A DNA stretch of 64,000 nucleotides, from contig JAPLLY010000007.1 of the NCBI GenBank assembly GCA_026387315.1, positions 1 to 64,000 on the forward strand, in the 5' to 3' direction. A program made the translations under genes and the position numbers. Each line of letters begins with the position of its first letter. Position 1 is the stretch's first letter. Source of the stretch: Candidatus Omnitrophota bacterium (GTDB lineage: Bacteria; Omnitrophota; Gorgyraeia; Gygaellales; Profunditerraquicolaceae). A model generated the notes under the pieces. That model made no database searches. It saw only the letters and a program-made list of their open reading frames with translations, and was not told the origin of the DNA. Shown here in pieces: positions 57,179-63,966 of this stretch.

Positions 57179-58753
57179 ATGTTGAACCTGGCAATCATCT
57201 ACCATATGCATCAGCCATATTACAAAAACCTTCTGACAGAACAGAGCGATCTTCCTTGGGTCAGGTTGCACGGTGTCAAAGATTATCTAGATATGGTGCA
57301 AATCTTAGAGCAGTTTCCCAAAATGAAGCTGACCTTTAATGTTGTGCCGTCCTTATTCGAACAAATCGAAGATTATAATAATACCGGGCTAAAGGATGAA
57401 TACCTGCGGCTATCCAGAAAACCCGCCGAGCAATTAACCAAAACCGATAAAGAATTTATCCTGCAGAATTTCTTCTCCATAAATAAGGACAAGGTCATTG
57501 CTTTTTCCCCGCGCTACTACCAGCTGTATTTTAAAAAACAATCCGGGCAGGAATTCAATCTCGGCGATTACCTTGACCTGCAGGTCTGCTTCAACCTTTT
57601 TTGGATTGATCCATCATTTAGAAAAAATATCCCGGAATTAAAGAAGGTAATGGATAAAGAAAGGTTTTTCTCGGAAAATGATAAGCAGATTGTTTTAAAC
57701 CAGCAGTTAGAAATCTTAAAAAGAATAATTCCGGCTTATAAAAACGCGCAGAACAACGGACAGGTTGAAATCAGCGTAACGCCTTATTATCATCCTATCT
57801 TGCCCTTACTTTATGATACTAATATCGCCAAAGAGGCAAATAAGAAAACTGTCCTGCCTCAGGAAGTGTTTAATTACCCCCTGGATGCCAAATATCAAAT
57901 TGATAGCGCGATAGAATTCTATAAACAAAGATTTGATACCGCGCCGCTGGGCATGTGGCCCTCTGAAGAGGGAGTAAGCGAGCATATCTTGCCTTATATT
58001 ATTGAATCCGGAATAAAATGGATGGTTACTGATGAAGTAATTTTATTTAAATCTTTGAAATTAAAAAAACGCGATACCAAACTGCTTTACCAGCCTCACT
58101 TACTTAAAAGGAAGGAAGGAGAGCTGAATATTGTTTTTCGCGACCGTAATCTTTCAGACTTAATCGGCTTTGTCTATCATCAGATGAAAGAGGTTGATGC
58201 GGTAAATAATTTTATGAAGCATTTAGAAAATATCAATAAAGCCTTTTCCGCCAAAGGCGGATCCGCCTCCGGCGAAAAGGGCAAAGACATTTTAGTCACT
58301 ATTGCCTTAGACGGAGAAAATGCCTGGGAGTTTTACCGTAATGACGGAGTAGATTTCCTGGAATTGTTTTATCAGCGCATAAGCCAGGCAGATTTTATAA
58401 AGACTACTACAGTCAGTGAATATTTAAAACTTAATCCGGCCAAAAGAATAATCAAACGCCTAAGCGCAGGCTCCTGGATTTACGGAGAATTCGGAAAATG
58501 GATTGGTAATCCCCATAAAGTAAAAGCCTGGGAATGGCTGGCGCAGGCGCGCAAAGCAATCCAAGAAACTAAAAACCCCAGTGACCTGGCCTGGAAACAA
58601 ATGTACATTTTAGAGGGAAGTGATTGGTTCTGGTGGGCAGGAGAAGATCCGGATGGATCATTTGACCGGCTGTTCAGGCTGCATTTAACTAACTTTTATC
58701 AGCTAATTAAACAAGAACCTCCGGCATATCTTGCCAGCCCCTTAACCTCTTAG
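57179..58753 (+). CDS. Glycoside hydrolase family 57 (amylase/glucanotransferase-like)
   Basis: AIIYHMHQPYYKN; LGMWPSEEGVSEHILPYIIESGIKWMVTDE; VTIALDGENAWEFY; WFWWAGED. Confidence 0.9.
   Translation: MLNLAIIYHMHQPYYKNLLTEQSDLPWVRLHGVKDYLDMVQILEQFPKMKLTFNVVPSLFEQIEDYNNTGLKDEYLRLSRKPAEQLTKTDKEFILQNFFSINKDKVIAFSPRYYQLYFKKQSGQEFNLGDYLDLQVCFNLFWIDPSFRKNIPELKKVMDKERFFSENDKQIVLNQQLEILKRIIPAYKNAQNNGQVEISVTPYYHPILPLLYDTNIAKEANKKTVLPQEVFNYPLDAKYQIDSAIEFYKQRFDTAPLGMWPSEEGVSEHILPYIIESGIKWMVTDEVILFKSLKLKKRDTKLLYQPHLLKRKEGELNIVFRDRNLSDLIGFVYHQMKEVDAVNNFMKHLENINKAFSAKGGSASGEKGKDILVTIALDGENAWEFYRNDGVDFLELFYQRISQADFIKTTTVSEYLKLNPAKRIIKRLSAGSWIYGEFGKWIGNPHKVKAWEWLAQARKAIQETKNPSDLAWKQMYILEGSDWFWWAGEDPDGSFDRLFRLHLTNFYQLIKQEPPAYLASPLTS
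58242..58280. repeat. In-CDS near-perfect palindrome CCTTTTCCGCCAAAGGCGGATCCGCCTCCGGCGAAAAGG
   Basis: Self-complementary about GGATCC; encodes FSAKGGSASGEKG. Confidence 0.85.
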
Positions 58754-58765
58754 CATTAACTTCAC

Positions 58766-58841
58766 GTCATTGCGAGGAGGCGAAGCCGACGAAGCAATCT
58801 TTAAATCGCGATTGCTTCGCCACTGCGTGGCTCGCAATGAC
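58766..58841. repeat. Full inverted copy of GTCATTGCGAGG...GAAGCAATCT / GATTGCTTCG...CTCGCAATGAC
   Basis: Arms read directly. Confidence 0.85.
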
Positions 58842-58858
58842 TGCTAGACCATAACTCC

Positions 58859-58896: not shown

Positions 58897-59469
58897 ATGA
58901 ATAAAAAAGAAATTTATGAGCATTTGGCTAATATTTATCTGGATGCCTCTTCGAAGTCTTCAAAGAAAAGACACAAATTTGGTTCTTATTCTAAAACGGT
59001 TCAGGGGGTAATCCTTGTCGGATTGGTGATGGTTTTGGGATTAGGCAGTTTTACTACTTATTCCCATATCCAAAACCGTAACCAACCGGGCCAGATTGCT
59101 TTATTCTTGCATCAAGATACGGCAAAAATTAATTTTAATTTTGACCCGGCTAAAAAAGAATCCTTTTCGCTGAATCTTAAACAGTTAAACTTATCCAAAT
59201 ATAAATTCTTGGCTTTTAGCATAAGAAAAACTAACTCTCAAGACATAATTTCATTAAGAGTAGAGTTTACTAACCGCTTTAACGAAAGATCTGAAATTTA
59301 CATCAAAGATATCTTTGATAAATGGACCGACCAAAAAATAGATTTTAATAGTTTCGCTAAAATGAATGACTGGGCCCAAATGAAAGAATTGGCTTTTATC
59401 ATTGAAGAGTGGAATGTCAGAGAGAAATCAGGAATTGTCTATCTGGATAACATTAGGATTTTAAAATAG
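58897..59469 (+). CDS. Single-TM protein with a CBM11/galactose-binding-like beta-sandwich domain
   Basis: TM VQGVILVGLVMVLGLGSF; SIRKTNSQDIISLRVEFTNRFNERSEIYIKDIFDKWTDQKIDFNSFAKMNDWAQMKELAFIIEEWNVREKSGIVYLDNIRIL. Confidence 0.65.
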   Translation: MNKKEIYEHLANIYLDASSKSSKKRHKFGSYSKTVQGVILVGLVMVLGLGSFTTYSHIQNRNQPGQIALFLHQDTAKINFNFDPAKKESFSLNLKQLNLSKYKFLAFSIRKTNSQDIISLRVEFTNRFNERSEIYIKDIFDKWTDQKIDFNSFAKMNDWAQMKELAFIIEEWNVREKSGIVYLDNIRILK

Positions 59470-59482
59470 GAGGAGAGGCTAA

Positions 59483-60577
59483 ATGCGCATTATAACCATC
59501 TCGAATCAAAAGGGAGGCTGCGGCAAAACAACCACATCCATTAATTTAGCCGCGGCACTGGCAAGCAATTCCCGCAAGGTTCTACTTATTGACCTTGACC
59601 CGCAGGCGCATGCCACCAGCGGCCTGGACATAAAAGCGGATTTAAGCATTTATAATGTCCTTTCTAAAATTACCAATAAAAAAAGCAAACTCGAAGAAAT
59701 TATCCAGAATTTAGGAGAGAATTTTGATATCGCGCCTTCCAGCATAGTTTTAAGCACGCTGGAACAGGAGTTAAGCGGTGAAATCGGAAGAGAATCCCGC
59801 CTCTGCGATATCCTGAAAAATTTTAAAAACAACTACGACTATATTTTAATTGACTGCCCGCCAAACTTAGGAATCCTTACCATTAACGCCATCCGGGCGG
59901 CTAATGAAATAATTATCCCCGTGGAAGCCAGCAGATTTTCTTTAGAAGGCGTAAGCCAGCTCACCAGTATTATTAATTTGATAGCGGAAAGATTAAATCA
60001 CCGCGTGGATTTCCGGGTTTTGGTTGCCAACTTTGATTCCCGCCTCGCGCATTCATTTACTATGCTTGAAAAGATCAAAAACGATTATAGAAATAAAATG
60101 TTTTCTAATATCATCCATGTAAATGTTAAATTAAAAGAGGCGCAGAACGCGGGATTAAACATCCTGGCTTATGATAAATACTGCCGTGGAGCAAAAGATT
60201 ATTTCTCACTTTCCCGGGAAATTATCACTCAGGAGAATAACCCAGAACCCAGCCAGGCAGTAGAAAAAACTTTCCAGAAACGCATGAATGAAATTCTTAA
60301 AAAAGAGCTGCCCAGGTTAAATGAAGTCGTGCTTAGCATTAATGCCCCGGATGCCAAAGAAGTTTATCTAGCCGGAGAATTCAACAACTGGAAACTCGAT
60401 GAAAACAGCCGCATGGAACAAACTAACGGCTGCTGGACTAAGCGCTTAAACTTAAACAGCGGCAAATACCGTTACCGTTTTGTGATTGATGGAAACTGGT
60501 CTGAAGATCCAGTTAATCCGTTAACGCAATTAAATACTTACGGAACCTTAGATTCTCTACTTGAGGTTAAGATTTAG
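59483..60577 (+). CDS. ParA/Soj-type ATPase with C-terminal CBM48/AMPK-type glycogen-binding domain
   Basis: ISNQKGGCGKTTTSINLAAALA; LIDLDPQAHATSGL; C-terminal VVLSINAPDAKEVYLAGEFNNWKLDENSRMEQTNGCWTKRLNLNSGKYRYRFVIDGNWSEDPVNPLTQLNTYGTLDSLLEV. Confidence 0.9.
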   Translation: MRIITISNQKGGCGKTTTSINLAAALASNSRKVLLIDLDPQAHATSGLDIKADLSIYNVLSKITNKKSKLEEIIQNLGENFDIAPSSIVLSTLEQELSGEIGRESRLCDILKNFKNNYDYILIDCPPNLGILTINAIRAANEIIIPVEASRFSLEGVSQLTSIINLIAERLNHRVDFRVLVANFDSRLAHSFTMLEKIKNDYRNKMFSNIIHVNVKLKEAQNAGLNILAYDKYCRGAKDYFSLSREIITQENNPEPSQAVEKTFQKRMNEILKKELPRLNEVVLSINAPDAKEVYLAGEFNNWKLDENSRMEQTNGCWTKRLNLNSGKYRYRFVIDGNWSEDPVNPLTQLNTYGTLDSLLEVKI

Positions 60578-60601: not shown

Positions 60602-60928
60602 ATGACTAATCCGCAGGAAGAACAACAAGTTCGCGAAGGAAAATTTTTTGCCGTAATTTCGTATGTTTCCTTCCTTTGTATAATTACTTTAATTTTAAAA
60701 AAAGATAACAAGTTTGCCCTTTACCATGCCAAACAAGGCTTGGTGCTGTTTGTAATGGAGGTGGCAGCATTCATACTCTCGATTATACCTTTCCTAGGCT
60801 GGCTGATCGGGATATTTGGATACGCCTTATTTCTGCTGGTTTCTTTATGGGGAATCATGCAGTCTATCCTGGGCATCTACAGCCGTATACCGATTGTAAC
60901 TGATATATCAGAGAAGGTCATCCTTTAA
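60602..60928 (+). CDS. DUF4870-like small membrane protein
   Basis: AVISYVSFLCIITLILKKDNKFALYHAKQGLVLFVMEVAAF. Confidence 0.75.
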   Translation: MTNPQEEQQVREGKFFAVISYVSFLCIITLILKKDNKFALYHAKQGLVLFVMEVAAFILSIIPFLGWLIGIFGYALFLLVSLWGIMQSILGIYSRIPIVTDISEKVIL

Positions 60929-60947: not shown

Positions 60948-61349
60948 ATGGCTTTAAAAAAGAAAATCAAAAAAGCAGCAAAGAAATCTACTAATAAGAT
61001 GTTTAAGAAAAAAATAAAGAAGGCAGTAAAGAAAACTGTAACGGTTAGTAAAAAGAAGCTGGTTTTAAAAAAGAAGCCCACTACCAAGAAAGCTGCTAAA
61101 AACGAAGGCAAACTTATCGGCTTAATCACGCATTATTTTCCCCATGTCCAAGCCGCGGTAATTAAATTAAAGGGCCCCTTAGCTAAGGGGGATACAGTAA
61201 AGATAAAGGGGCATACTACTGATATTACCCAAATTGCAGCCTCCATGCAAATTGACCGGGTAGATATCCAAACCGCCAAAAAAGGCGATGAAATCGGCTT
61301 GCAAGTCAGCTCCCGGGTAAGACAACAAGACAAAGTTTATAAGGTTTAA
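60948..61349 (+). CDS. Translation-factor domain II-like (EF-Tu_D2-like) protein with lysine-rich N-terminal tail
   Basis: KKKIKKAAKKSTNKMFKKKIKKAVKKTVTVSKKK then IGLITHYFPHVQAAVIKLKGPLAKGDTVKIKGHTTDITQIAASMQIDRVDIQTAKKGDEIGLQV. Confidence 0.82.
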   Translation: MALKKKIKKAAKKSTNKMFKKKIKKAVKKTVTVSKKKLVLKKKPTTKKAAKNEGKLIGLITHYFPHVQAAVIKLKGPLAKGDTVKIKGHTTDITQIAASMQIDRVDIQTAKKGDEIGLQVSSRVRQQDKVYKV

Positions 61350-61602: not shown

Positions 61603-61812
61603 TTGGGCAACGAAAAAATGACGATTACAGATGTGGCAGATCGAATTGGCGTCACTCCTAAGACCATTATGCGTTGGGAGAAATCCGGTAAGGTTAACAA
61701 GCCTAAACGCGATTGGAGGCTCTGGAGGGTTTACGATAAGAACGATTTCAAAAAACTTAAGGCTTTTAAAGAAACAGTTGTTTATCTAGAGGAGGATTCC
61801 AATGCAAGGTAA
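61603..61812 (+). CDS. MerR/excisionase-type HTH protein (TTG start, or ATG at 61618)
   Basis: MTITDVADRIGVTPKTIMRWEKSGKVNKPKRDWRLWRVYDKNDFKKLKAFKE. Confidence 0.82.
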   Translation: MGNEKMTITDVADRIGVTPKTIMRWEKSGKVNKPKRDWRLWRVYDKNDFKKLKAFKETVVYLEEDSNAR

Positions 61813-62620
61813 ATTTATACCCATTTTAACCATCAGTTTAGGGCTATTGATTAGCTCATTTTTATCATCTGCCACAGCGGAAGATAAGCCTCCGCAAACA
61901 CCCAAGCCTGCTGCCACCTTAGAAAAAATTCCGGCAGGCGGCTACGCCTTAGCTATACCTTCTAATATACCTGGATATGATGCTAAAACCACTCCTTCAG
62001 AATTTAACTCTGTAAAATACACCTTGGGGCCGGATGATGTCATTGATGTTACGGTTATGCGCCATCCGGAATTCAGCGGGTCATTCCCCGTTAACTCTGA
62101 AGGTAAAATTCAGTATAAATTCGTAGGAGACATTGATGTCAGCGGCCTAACCAAAAAACAGGTTGAAGATAAATTAGTCAAGGTCCTTTCCAGTTACTTG
62201 GTGGGCCCAGAGGTCAGCGTAACGATTACCGAATATAAAAGTAAATTTGTTTTTGTCTTAGGAGAAGTTAGTCAACCCGGAAAATTTTACATCAAATCCG
62301 AAATCATATCCGTAAGAGATGCCGTAGTTAACGCCGGACTGCCCACATACTCTGCGGCCATGCGTAAATGCAGCCTGATCACCCCGGATAAGAGCGGAAG
62401 AGTCAAAAACAGGCCCGTGAACATATATGCCATATTATACGTTGGTGATTTAAGGCGAAACATAGACATGCATCCCGGGGATGTCTTATATGTGCCATCA
62501 ACCATAATGGCCAAAGTTATCCGGATAATCAGCCCGGTGGCCACCACCGTAGGCCTAGCTTCATCGCCAGCGGAAAATACTTCAACCATCAAAACCAGCG
62601 CCAAGATGCTTGCGCTATAG
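61802..62620 (+). CDS. Polysaccharide export protein (Wza-like, Poly_export/SLBB)
   Basis: YTLGPDDVIDVTVMRHPEFSGSFPVNSEGKIQYKFVGDIDVSGLTKKQVEDKL; FVLGEVSQPGKFYI. Confidence 0.92.
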   Translation: MQGKFIPILTISLGLLISSFLSSATAEDKPPQTPKPAATLEKIPAGGYALAIPSNIPGYDAKTTPSEFNSVKYTLGPDDVIDVTVMRHPEFSGSFPVNSEGKIQYKFVGDIDVSGLTKKQVEDKLVKVLSSYLVGPEVSVTITEYKSKFVFVLGEVSQPGKFYIKSEIISVRDAVVNAGLPTYSAAMRKCSLITPDKSGRVKNRPVNIYAILYVGDLRRNIDMHPGDVLYVPSTIMAKVIRIISPVATTVGLASSPAENTSTIKTSAKMLAL

Positions 62621-62655
62621 AGATCGTAAAAGAGAAGGTTATAAGAAAGGAAGTT

Positions 62656-63966
62656 ATGGATAACCCTGAATCTTCAAACAAACAAAACCCGGTAGATTTT
62701 TTAAAATTATTCTTCAGGAGAAGATGGCTTTTTATCGGCCCGGCATTTATCGGGCTGGTTTTAGGTATTATTGCCTGTTTCTTAATGCCACGCTCTTACG
62801 AGGCTAGCTCGCTTATCTTAGTAGAAGAAGAAAAGATCATCAATCCCATGATCCAGGGATTAGCGGTTTCTACCTCAATGGTTGACCGGATGCAGACCAT
62901 TAAAGAGATGCTCTTGGGCTGGAACAGCTTAGTTGAGCTTACCAAAAAACTGGACCTGGCCAAAAATGTCCAAAGCCAAGTCCAGTTTGAACAACTAATC
63001 ATGGGCTTAAGAAAAAATATCAATATTCAGATGCGCGGTATGAATATTATAAAAATTGCTTATACCGGAGAAAATCCCGAAGAAACCCGCCTGATCACTC
63101 AAACCCTGGGAGATATACTGGTAGATGAAAACATACGCAAGCAAACCAAAGAAGCCGATGTAGCCATAAACTTCTTAACCGAACAGCTCCAAATATATAA
63201 GAAGAAAATTAAAGAAACCGAGATTGCCAACCTTGAAGATCAGCTTAAAACACTATTGATCGATTCCACTGAAGAACATCCTTTAGTTAAAGATTTGAGG
63301 CAACAAATCGCCAAAGCCAGAAAAGAAATGGATTCCGGAGAGTTCAAGGTCCCGCCTTTAGGAACAATTAGCAATAACCCTACTTATCAAGCCTTGAAAA
63401 AAGAGCTCAATAAATTAGAGAGTGGAGAGACTATTGCTAGCGCTCAGCCAACTGCAACCGGCTCAGGGGATAATCCCGAAGACACCAACACCACAATTTA
63501 TAAGCTAATGGTCATTGATAAGCTCGATTCAGCCTTGGCCAGAGACAAAAATGTAAATGAGACTATTTATAACCTGCTCCTGCAGAAATTAGAAACCGCT
63601 AAGATCACTCAGCGCCTTGAGGCTTCCAAATCCGGGACCCGTTACACGGTAATTGACCCAGCCAGGATGCCGCTAGTACCATCAAAACCCAATAAGCTGG
63701 TAGTCATTTTATTAGGCCTCTTACTAGGCGCGGCCAGCGGAACAGGCCTGGTTTTTGGTTCCGAATTCATGAATCAGTCTTTCCTGGATATAGAAGATGC
63801 TAAGACCACACTGGGGTTACCGGTATTAGGCGGTATCTCCCGCATCACCACCCAGGAAGAAATCGACAAAGAGAAATATAAAAAGCATAAATTTATCACC
63901 ATTACCTTAATAGCATCAGTAATACTGATTATTACGGCAATACTAATTTCATTCTTCAAGCGTTAG
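62656..63966 (+). CDS. Chain-length determinant / Wzz-type protein
   Basis: N- and C-terminal TMs; FFRRRWLFIGPAFIGLVLGIIACFLMPRSYEASSLILVEE; VIDPARMPLVPSKPNKLVVILLGLLLG. Confidence 0.9.
   Translation: MDNPESSNKQNPVDFLKLFFRRRWLFIGPAFIGLVLGIIACFLMPRSYEASSLILVEEEKIINPMIQGLAVSTSMVDRMQTIKEMLLGWNSLVELTKKLDLAKNVQSQVQFEQLIMGLRKNINIQMRGMNIIKIAYTGENPEETRLITQTLGDILVDENIRKQTKEADVAINFLTEQLQIYKKKIKETEIANLEDQLKTLLIDSTEEHPLVKDLRQQIAKARKEMDSGEFKVPPLGTISNNPTYQALKKELNKLESGETIASAQPTATGSGDNPEDTNTTIYKLMVIDKLDSALARDKNVNETIYNLLLQKLETAKITQRLEASKSGTRYTVIDPARMPLVPSKPNKLVVILLGLLLGAASGTGLVFGSEFMNQSFLDIEDAKTTLGLPVLGGISRITTQEEIDKEKYKKHKFITITLIASVILIITAILISFFKR

Follow-up and report, generated by a model that had tools for sequence, protein, structure and literature searches.

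The window, i.e., the whole 64,000-nt stretch of DNA that was analysed, carries an uninterrupted open reading frame of 364 aa with a good ribosome-binding site (aggagaggc ahead of the ATG). This gene, here called ParA-CBM, lies among the following features.

57179..58753, + strand: GH57 alpha-glucan-type glycoside hydrolase (PF03065, 3.1e-60; PDB GH57 9jlq, 7.9e-81)
58897..59469, + strand: putative partner, a 190-aa bitopic inner-membrane protein (synteny, copy number, AF2 model)
58903..58953, + strand: conserved cytoplasmic N-terminal helix of the partner, residues 3–19 (PSSM, conservation, AF2 helix)
58993..59073, + strand: single transmembrane helix of the partner, residues 33–59 (hydropathy, AF2 helix 33–59)
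59089..59466, + strand: outer (extracytoplasmic) beta-sandwich of the partner, CBM11/CBM30-like fold (Foldseek)
59483..60577, + strand: ParA-CBM fusion
59483..60232, + strand: ParA/Soj-type ATPase domain, residues 1–250, with deviant Walker A QKGGCGKTT, signature Lys K10 and K15, DLDPQ (D39), Walker B D124 and DNA-binding-type R187 and K216 (Pfam AAA_31, 8ray/1wcv matches, column counts)
60233..60322, + strand: linker, residues 251–280 (AF2 pLDDT, orthologue alignment)
60323..60574, + strand: AMPK-beta-type glycogen-binding domain CBM48, residues 281–364, with key residues W303 (60389–60391), R332 and W339 (60497–60499) (AMPK1_CBM, 1z0n matches)
60602..60928, + strand: 108-aa hydrophobic membrane protein, weakly DUF4870-like (cluster c5; frequent neighbour)
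60948..61349, + strand: 133-aa Lys-rich protein (cluster c2, 31 members among the loci compared; frequent neighbour)

The preliminary description had interpreted the frame as a ParA-type ATPase running into a CBM48/AMPK domain, and both domain assignments were borne out by Pfam, PDB sequence matches and the AF2 fold. Residues 1–175 matched Pfam AAA_31 (3.6e-57), and the N-terminal part matched the PDB sequences of ParA 8ray (2.7e-53) and Soj 1wcv (1.2e-37). Residues 290–363 matched AMPK1_CBM (PF16561; 7.6e-14, 52.1 bits vs. a cut-off of 26.8), with a further match to CBM_48 (PF02922; 2.4e-6, 28.2 bits vs. a cut-off of 22.4). The best PDB match of the CBM domain alone was the rat AMPK beta-1 CBM (1z0n), obtained at 8e-12 with the isolated domain and at 1.4e-10 with the full-length query. 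The AF2 model, built from 29 homologues with a mean pLDDT of 83.5, folds as a ParA (TM-score 0.88 against 8ray, by target length), with a distinct beta domain at residues 281–363; the linker joining the two, at about 253–280, is of low confidence. Within the linker, pLDDT fell below 50 at residues 254–262 and 267–279, and alignment of orthologues together with the model showed a segment of variable length and sequence that is partly disordered. The motifs reported beforehand (KGGCGKTT, DLDPQAHATSG, VYLAGEFNNW and YRFVIDGNW..DP.N) were all present exactly as given. The ORF was confirmed as an intact ParA/Soj ATPase followed by a flexible linker and an AMPK-type CBM48.

Full-length orthologues were found in most of the 58 relatives searched, and about 150 full-length fusions were listed across 384 genomes of the phylum Omnitrophota, in several classes. 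Since full-length orthologues with the same domain order were found from the genus up through family and order to the class, and also in other classes of the phylum, where fusions were confirmed in several families, the gene is not a chimera; chimerism and misassembly were ruled out by the many independent assemblies. Some near relatives have no fusion, e.g., G007 and G016 (92–93% complete), and it is therefore not essential everywhere. In a scan of named genome contigs, the matches listed (best 80 loci) belonged almost only to Omnitrophota records, comprising MAGs and the complete genome of Ca. Velamenicoccus archaeovorus LiM. A few fusion records bear the titles Planctomycetales, Desulfobacterales or Eisenbacteria; these bins have probably been mislabelled.

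The phylogeny was inferred from 69 fused ParA domains and a second set of 18 further ParA/Soj sequences, made up of ones from these genomes and Thermus Soj. One branch with 100/99 support parts all 69 fused domains from ordinary ParA/Soj, including the genome's own Soj, and the fused side of the tree broadly matches taxonomy. The fusion is old in Omnitrophota and vertically inherited. The ParA/Soj-type sequence would also suit an ordinary partition ParA, of chromosome or plasmid, whose C-terminal domain is mere decoration; this is nevertheless highly improbable, given that a separate canonical parAB pair sits elsewhere in this genome (G000:C12), that no ParB lies beside the fusion, and that the gene occupies a single locus with conserved chromosomal synteny and a tree broadly following taxonomy. 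Identity with a plasmid or chromosome ParA was rejected on the separate parAB pair and the ParA tree. Two diverged ParA-CBM paralogues per genome were observed in G181 (L154 and L155) and G222 (L159 and L160). At another locus (L153, G250:C1:1055878-1056852), the start of ParA-CBM continues into a 2,635-aa frame; runs of N lie inside this frame, which suggests a gap in the scaffold and not a genuine giant fusion.

Column counts were made for 76 fusions in three divergence groups. The earlier reading of the ATPase as an intact deviant-Walker enzyme was upheld, as K10, K15, D39, Q41 and D124 were retained in every homologue in which they could be aligned. R187 corresponds to B. subtilis Soj R189 and was kept in 72 of the 76 fusions. 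At K216, the counterpart of Soj R218, Lys or Arg was present in 42 of 46 members of the near group, while the distant groups were mixed; this second DNA-binding position is lost in part of the wider family. The Soj counterparts of both residues have been described as important for DNA binding (PMC3778016). Judged by sequence comparison, the ParA domain has the residues needed for ATP-dependent dimerisation and those for non-specific DNA binding, at least R187 and, in this order, also K216.

In the CBM48, the Trp at position 303 (AMPK W100) was found in 76/76 homologues and that at 339 (AMPK W133) in 74/76, and position 332 (AMPK K126) was Arg or Lys in 71/76. In AMPK, W100, K126 and W133 contact carbohydrate, and mutating them markedly lowers glycogen binding (PMC2642990). 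Absence of the glucan-binding aromatics, together with a failure to bind glycogen in vitro, had been named beforehand as grounds for refutation; the aromatics are conserved, and so the first of these objections does not arise. By sequence, the tethered domain carries the AMPK-type glucan-stacking tryptophans. Other contacts differ: the position of AMPK L146 is Tyr or Phe, that of T148 is variable and that of N150 is mostly Asp. The last two changes, together with the failure of the fusion to track starch synthase (see below), would suit a CBM48 that has lost carbohydrate binding and serves as a protein–protein or dimer-stabilising module in the positioning of some other cargo. We regard this as rather improbable, as very divergent homologues retain both stacking tryptophans and a basic residue at the K126 position while much else in the domain varies.

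The GH57 gene (cluster c3) precedes the partner gene in most loci of the own order. The 108-aa membrane protein gene begins 24 bp downstream of the fusion, and its DUF4870 match (0.073) is under the cut-off. The 133-aa Lys-rich protein gave no Pfam match; we take it to contain an elongation-factor-like beta domain. An inverted-repeat element (GATTGCTTCGCCACTGCGTGGCTCGCAATG and its mate; window 58770-58845) lies between the GH57 and partner genes, with one copy in the window and none in the relatives' loci fetched.

Starch synthase and phosphorylase genes are present in this genome. Starch synthase was detected in 345 of the 384 phylum genomes, fusion present or not, and tracking of starch synthase by the fusion was ruled out, as the gene does not discriminate genomes with the fusion from those without. 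It therefore shows only that glucan is probably made, and the link of ParA-CBM to glycogen stays an inference. Several fusion-bearing genomes at least 90% complete had no starch-synthase match (e.g., G032, G163, G174 and G179), so the two are not strictly coupled. A stand-alone 104-aa CBM48 protein (L053:6819-7133; G000:C52:26818-27132) is encoded inside a lipid A gene run (bamA, skp, lpxD, lpxC-fabZ, lpxA, lpxI-like), and similar proteins of about 100 aa occur in most relatives. Giant frames of up to 37,731 aa with glycosyltransferase-5-like stretches were seen in relatives (G011:C3, G004:C5, G042:C33 and G013:C5).

The preliminary description had proposed a survey for ParB-like partners. No ParB adjoins the fusion in this genome; the probable partner is a bitopic membrane protein whose cytoplasmic tail is conserved. 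Its stop codon lies 13 nt ahead of the ParA start codon, and its gene is immediately upstream in every own-order locus with that DNA on the contig. Across the order the protein is bitopic, measures 187–211 aa and occurs at about one copy per genome; G003, G005 and G007 are without a full-length copy. In the AF2 model a disordered K/R-rich basic stretch precedes the membrane helix. The Pfam search of the partner itself returned no credible family, and the outer domain was named by fold comparison only, the best Foldseek match being CBM11 1v0a (E 1.1e-7, 15% identity). Related partners matched Pfam CBM30 at 4.8e-5 and 0.018, both under the cut-off.

The tail, with the conserved helix sequence KEIYEHLANIYLD and the motif KEIYEHLAxIYLD, is the best-conserved segment of the partner (within the family, 59% vs. 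38% in the outer domain). When a tail PSSM trained on the own order was applied to 671 proteins in 41 other loci, the top 16 were all the gene at position −1, and they included members of a cluster that BLAST had left unjoined to the first. Between these two clusters the tail again exceeds the outer domain (30% vs. 17%). The partners of both are probably distant homologues, so the tail motif would be conserved rather than convergent. The N-terminal helix looks like a candidate ParA-triggering peptide.

A membrane partner is about as compatible with a membrane-anchoring or envelope-linked sensor as with granule positioning on the nucleoid. ParA-CBM could be a BcsQ/FlhG/MinD-like regulator of a cell-envelope glycan machine, its ParA domain binding and switching the cytoplasmic tail of the membrane partner while the CBM48 senses glycogen or malto-oligosaccharide as a measure of carbon status, with no granule moved. 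The bitopic partner with its CBM11-like outer domain is consistent with such a role, as are the AlgE-like outer-membrane barrel (c4, PF13372, 3e-33), which is common further upstream in relatives, the polysaccharide-export cluster that follows the fusion in this genome and a few relatives, and the presence of BcsQ and FlhG structures among the fold matches. AMPK, moreover, employs the same domain as a sensor (PMC2642990). Against this, the nearest fold and sequence are those of nucleoid-binding ParA/Soj and not of BcsQ/FlhG, R187 is kept phylum-wide, no amphipathic membrane-targeting C-terminus was seen, that end being filled by the CBM, and the motif-bearing partner of other classes has no recognised membrane anchor. 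We consider the envelope regulator unlikely, yet it is the strongest of the alternatives discussed here. The barrel gene was not found upstream of the fusion in the window. The export cluster (window 61802-63966 and L051) comprises Poly_export/SLBB, Wzz/GNVR, an ExeA-like ATPase and a ParA-like kinase.

Loci of other classes lack the upstream membrane protein; there, the +1 gene starts with a different, ParB-like motif (RGLKDISHLFLS-like; [R/K]GLxDhSxLF, also written RGLxDISxLF). In a leave-one-out test, for which the motif positions had been picked by eye beforehand, the +1 gene ranked first in 14 of 17 loci and second in the other three; in two of these three it was beaten only by a DUF4912 protein bearing the same motif. 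A similar sequence opens the ParB of this genome (ALGKGLGALIPE; LGKGLGALIPE), and the ParA-binding peptide of ParB sits at its N-terminal start (PMC12462528). The +1 proteins at L138-L152 may be degenerate ParA/P-loop-like partners; a CbiA match was weak and confined to L171/L172. The upstream and downstream motifs can be aligned by eye, but PSSM cross-tests failed both ways and their identity as one motif was rejected.

The most direct genomic link of the fusion to glycogen is the operon of family f36, in which the ParA-CBM gene is followed by that of a degenerate ParA-like protein, then by two more genes, a DUF4912 gene and a GH57 gene whose product has a branching-enzyme C-terminal domain (BE_C, 1.9e-40). 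The DUF4912 protein, directly ahead of the branching enzyme, starts with the same motif as the +1 partner. DUF4912 is plausibly a glycogen-associated domain. In the own order, DUF4912 proteins with Lys-rich N-termini are near-universal and often share a contig with starch synthase (L171, L172, L177-L206); the f36 motif is absent from them.

Taken together, sequence and structural modelling lead us to a tentative reading, to which we give slightly less than an even chance: ParA-CBM would be a ParA/McdA-type (ParA/MinD-type) switch with its own alpha-glucan adaptor, triggered by a partner peptide, that places, anchors or senses glycogen. N-termini of partners drive ParA/MinD ATPases generally (PMC10241942, PMC12204374, PMC12462528), and as a family rule release is triggered by binding of the partner's first 20–30 residues to the ATP dimer (PMC10241942, PMC12204374). 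By analogy with this rule, the most likely mechanism is a ParA cycle with the glucan hook on the ATPase and the partner helix as trigger. ATP-bound ParA-CBM dimers would occupy the nucleoid, or some other surface, and use their two CBMs to hold glycogen. By docking its N-terminal helix at the dimer interface, the partner would then set off hydrolysis and release, in the manner of the N-terminal peptides of ParB and McdB. In the own order the trigger would be located at the inner membrane; glycogen would thus be kept dispersed, anchored or divided between daughter cells, or, alternatively, the glycogen load would be reported to the membrane partner.

A phylum-wide system dedicated to placing glycogen and dividing it up, consisting of a ParA with a built-in hook and an N-terminal trigger peptide on lineage-specific partners, is possible but doubtful. 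The peptide would be carried, depending on lineage, by an inner-membrane protein, a degenerate ParA-like protein or the DUF4912 protein beside the branching enzyme. Counted against the glucan-adaptor switch are the missing starch-synthase coupling, the T148/N150 changes, the partial loss of K216 and the two unlike partner motifs. In addition, the extracytoplasmic CBM-like domain of the partner suggests an envelope role beyond granule positioning alone.

Chromosomes, plasmids, carboxysomes, chemotaxis arrays and flagella are among the established cargos of ParA/MinD ATPases. Glycogen is not mentioned in PMC10241942, and no account of a bacterial system that places a storage polysaccharide was found in the open-access literature. 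The same holds for a ParA-CBM48 fusion or a ParA-glycogen system in open-access papers, subscription papers being mostly outside this scope. In E. coli, glycogen gathers at the old pole, displaces the nucleoid and makes division asymmetric (PMC12706056), and its over-accumulation leads to chromosome-less cells (PMC4836754). As most Omnitrophota are ultra-small (PMC10066038), control over the location of glycogen would plausibly benefit a cell with little room. The module is small and testable, comprising one ATPase and a peptide of about 25 residues, and an orthologue is available in the complete genome of Ca. Velamenicoccus archaeovorus LiM. ParA-CBM is also a candidate marker of an ancestral Omnitrophota trait.

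The fusion belongs to the ParA/MinD kind and is not a new kind of protein. It shares with ParA/Soj of ParABS (8ray, 1wcv, 6iub) the fold, the deviant Walker A with signature Lys, Walker A' and B, and the R189-type and, in this order, R218-type DNA-binding residues. Unlike ParA/Soj, it has a C-terminal CBM48 and KGGCGKTT instead of KGGVGKTT, and forms a separate clade; unlike in ParABS, no ParB is encoded beside it, the canonical parAB being elsewhere. BcsQ of cellulose biosynthesis is likewise a ParA-fold ATPase tied to a polysaccharide process; however, identity by fold match is only about 14–17%, and the NCBIfam BcsQ equivalog cellulose_yhjQ scored 64.5 bits, far under its cut-off of 157.85. 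The C-terminal domain is the same as the CBM48 of the AMPK beta subunit (1z0n, 4y0g), with W100, W133 and K126 equivalents, but it is placed on a bacterial ParA, with the T148 and N150 positions changed and an aromatic residue (Tyr or Phe) at L146. As in the McdAB carboxysome system and other ParA/MinD cargo positioning, an ATPase gene is accompanied by a partner with a conserved charged N-terminal region. In contrast to McdAB, the ATPase itself bears the cargo-type domain, and its putative partner is membrane-bound and has a CBM-like domain on the outer side.
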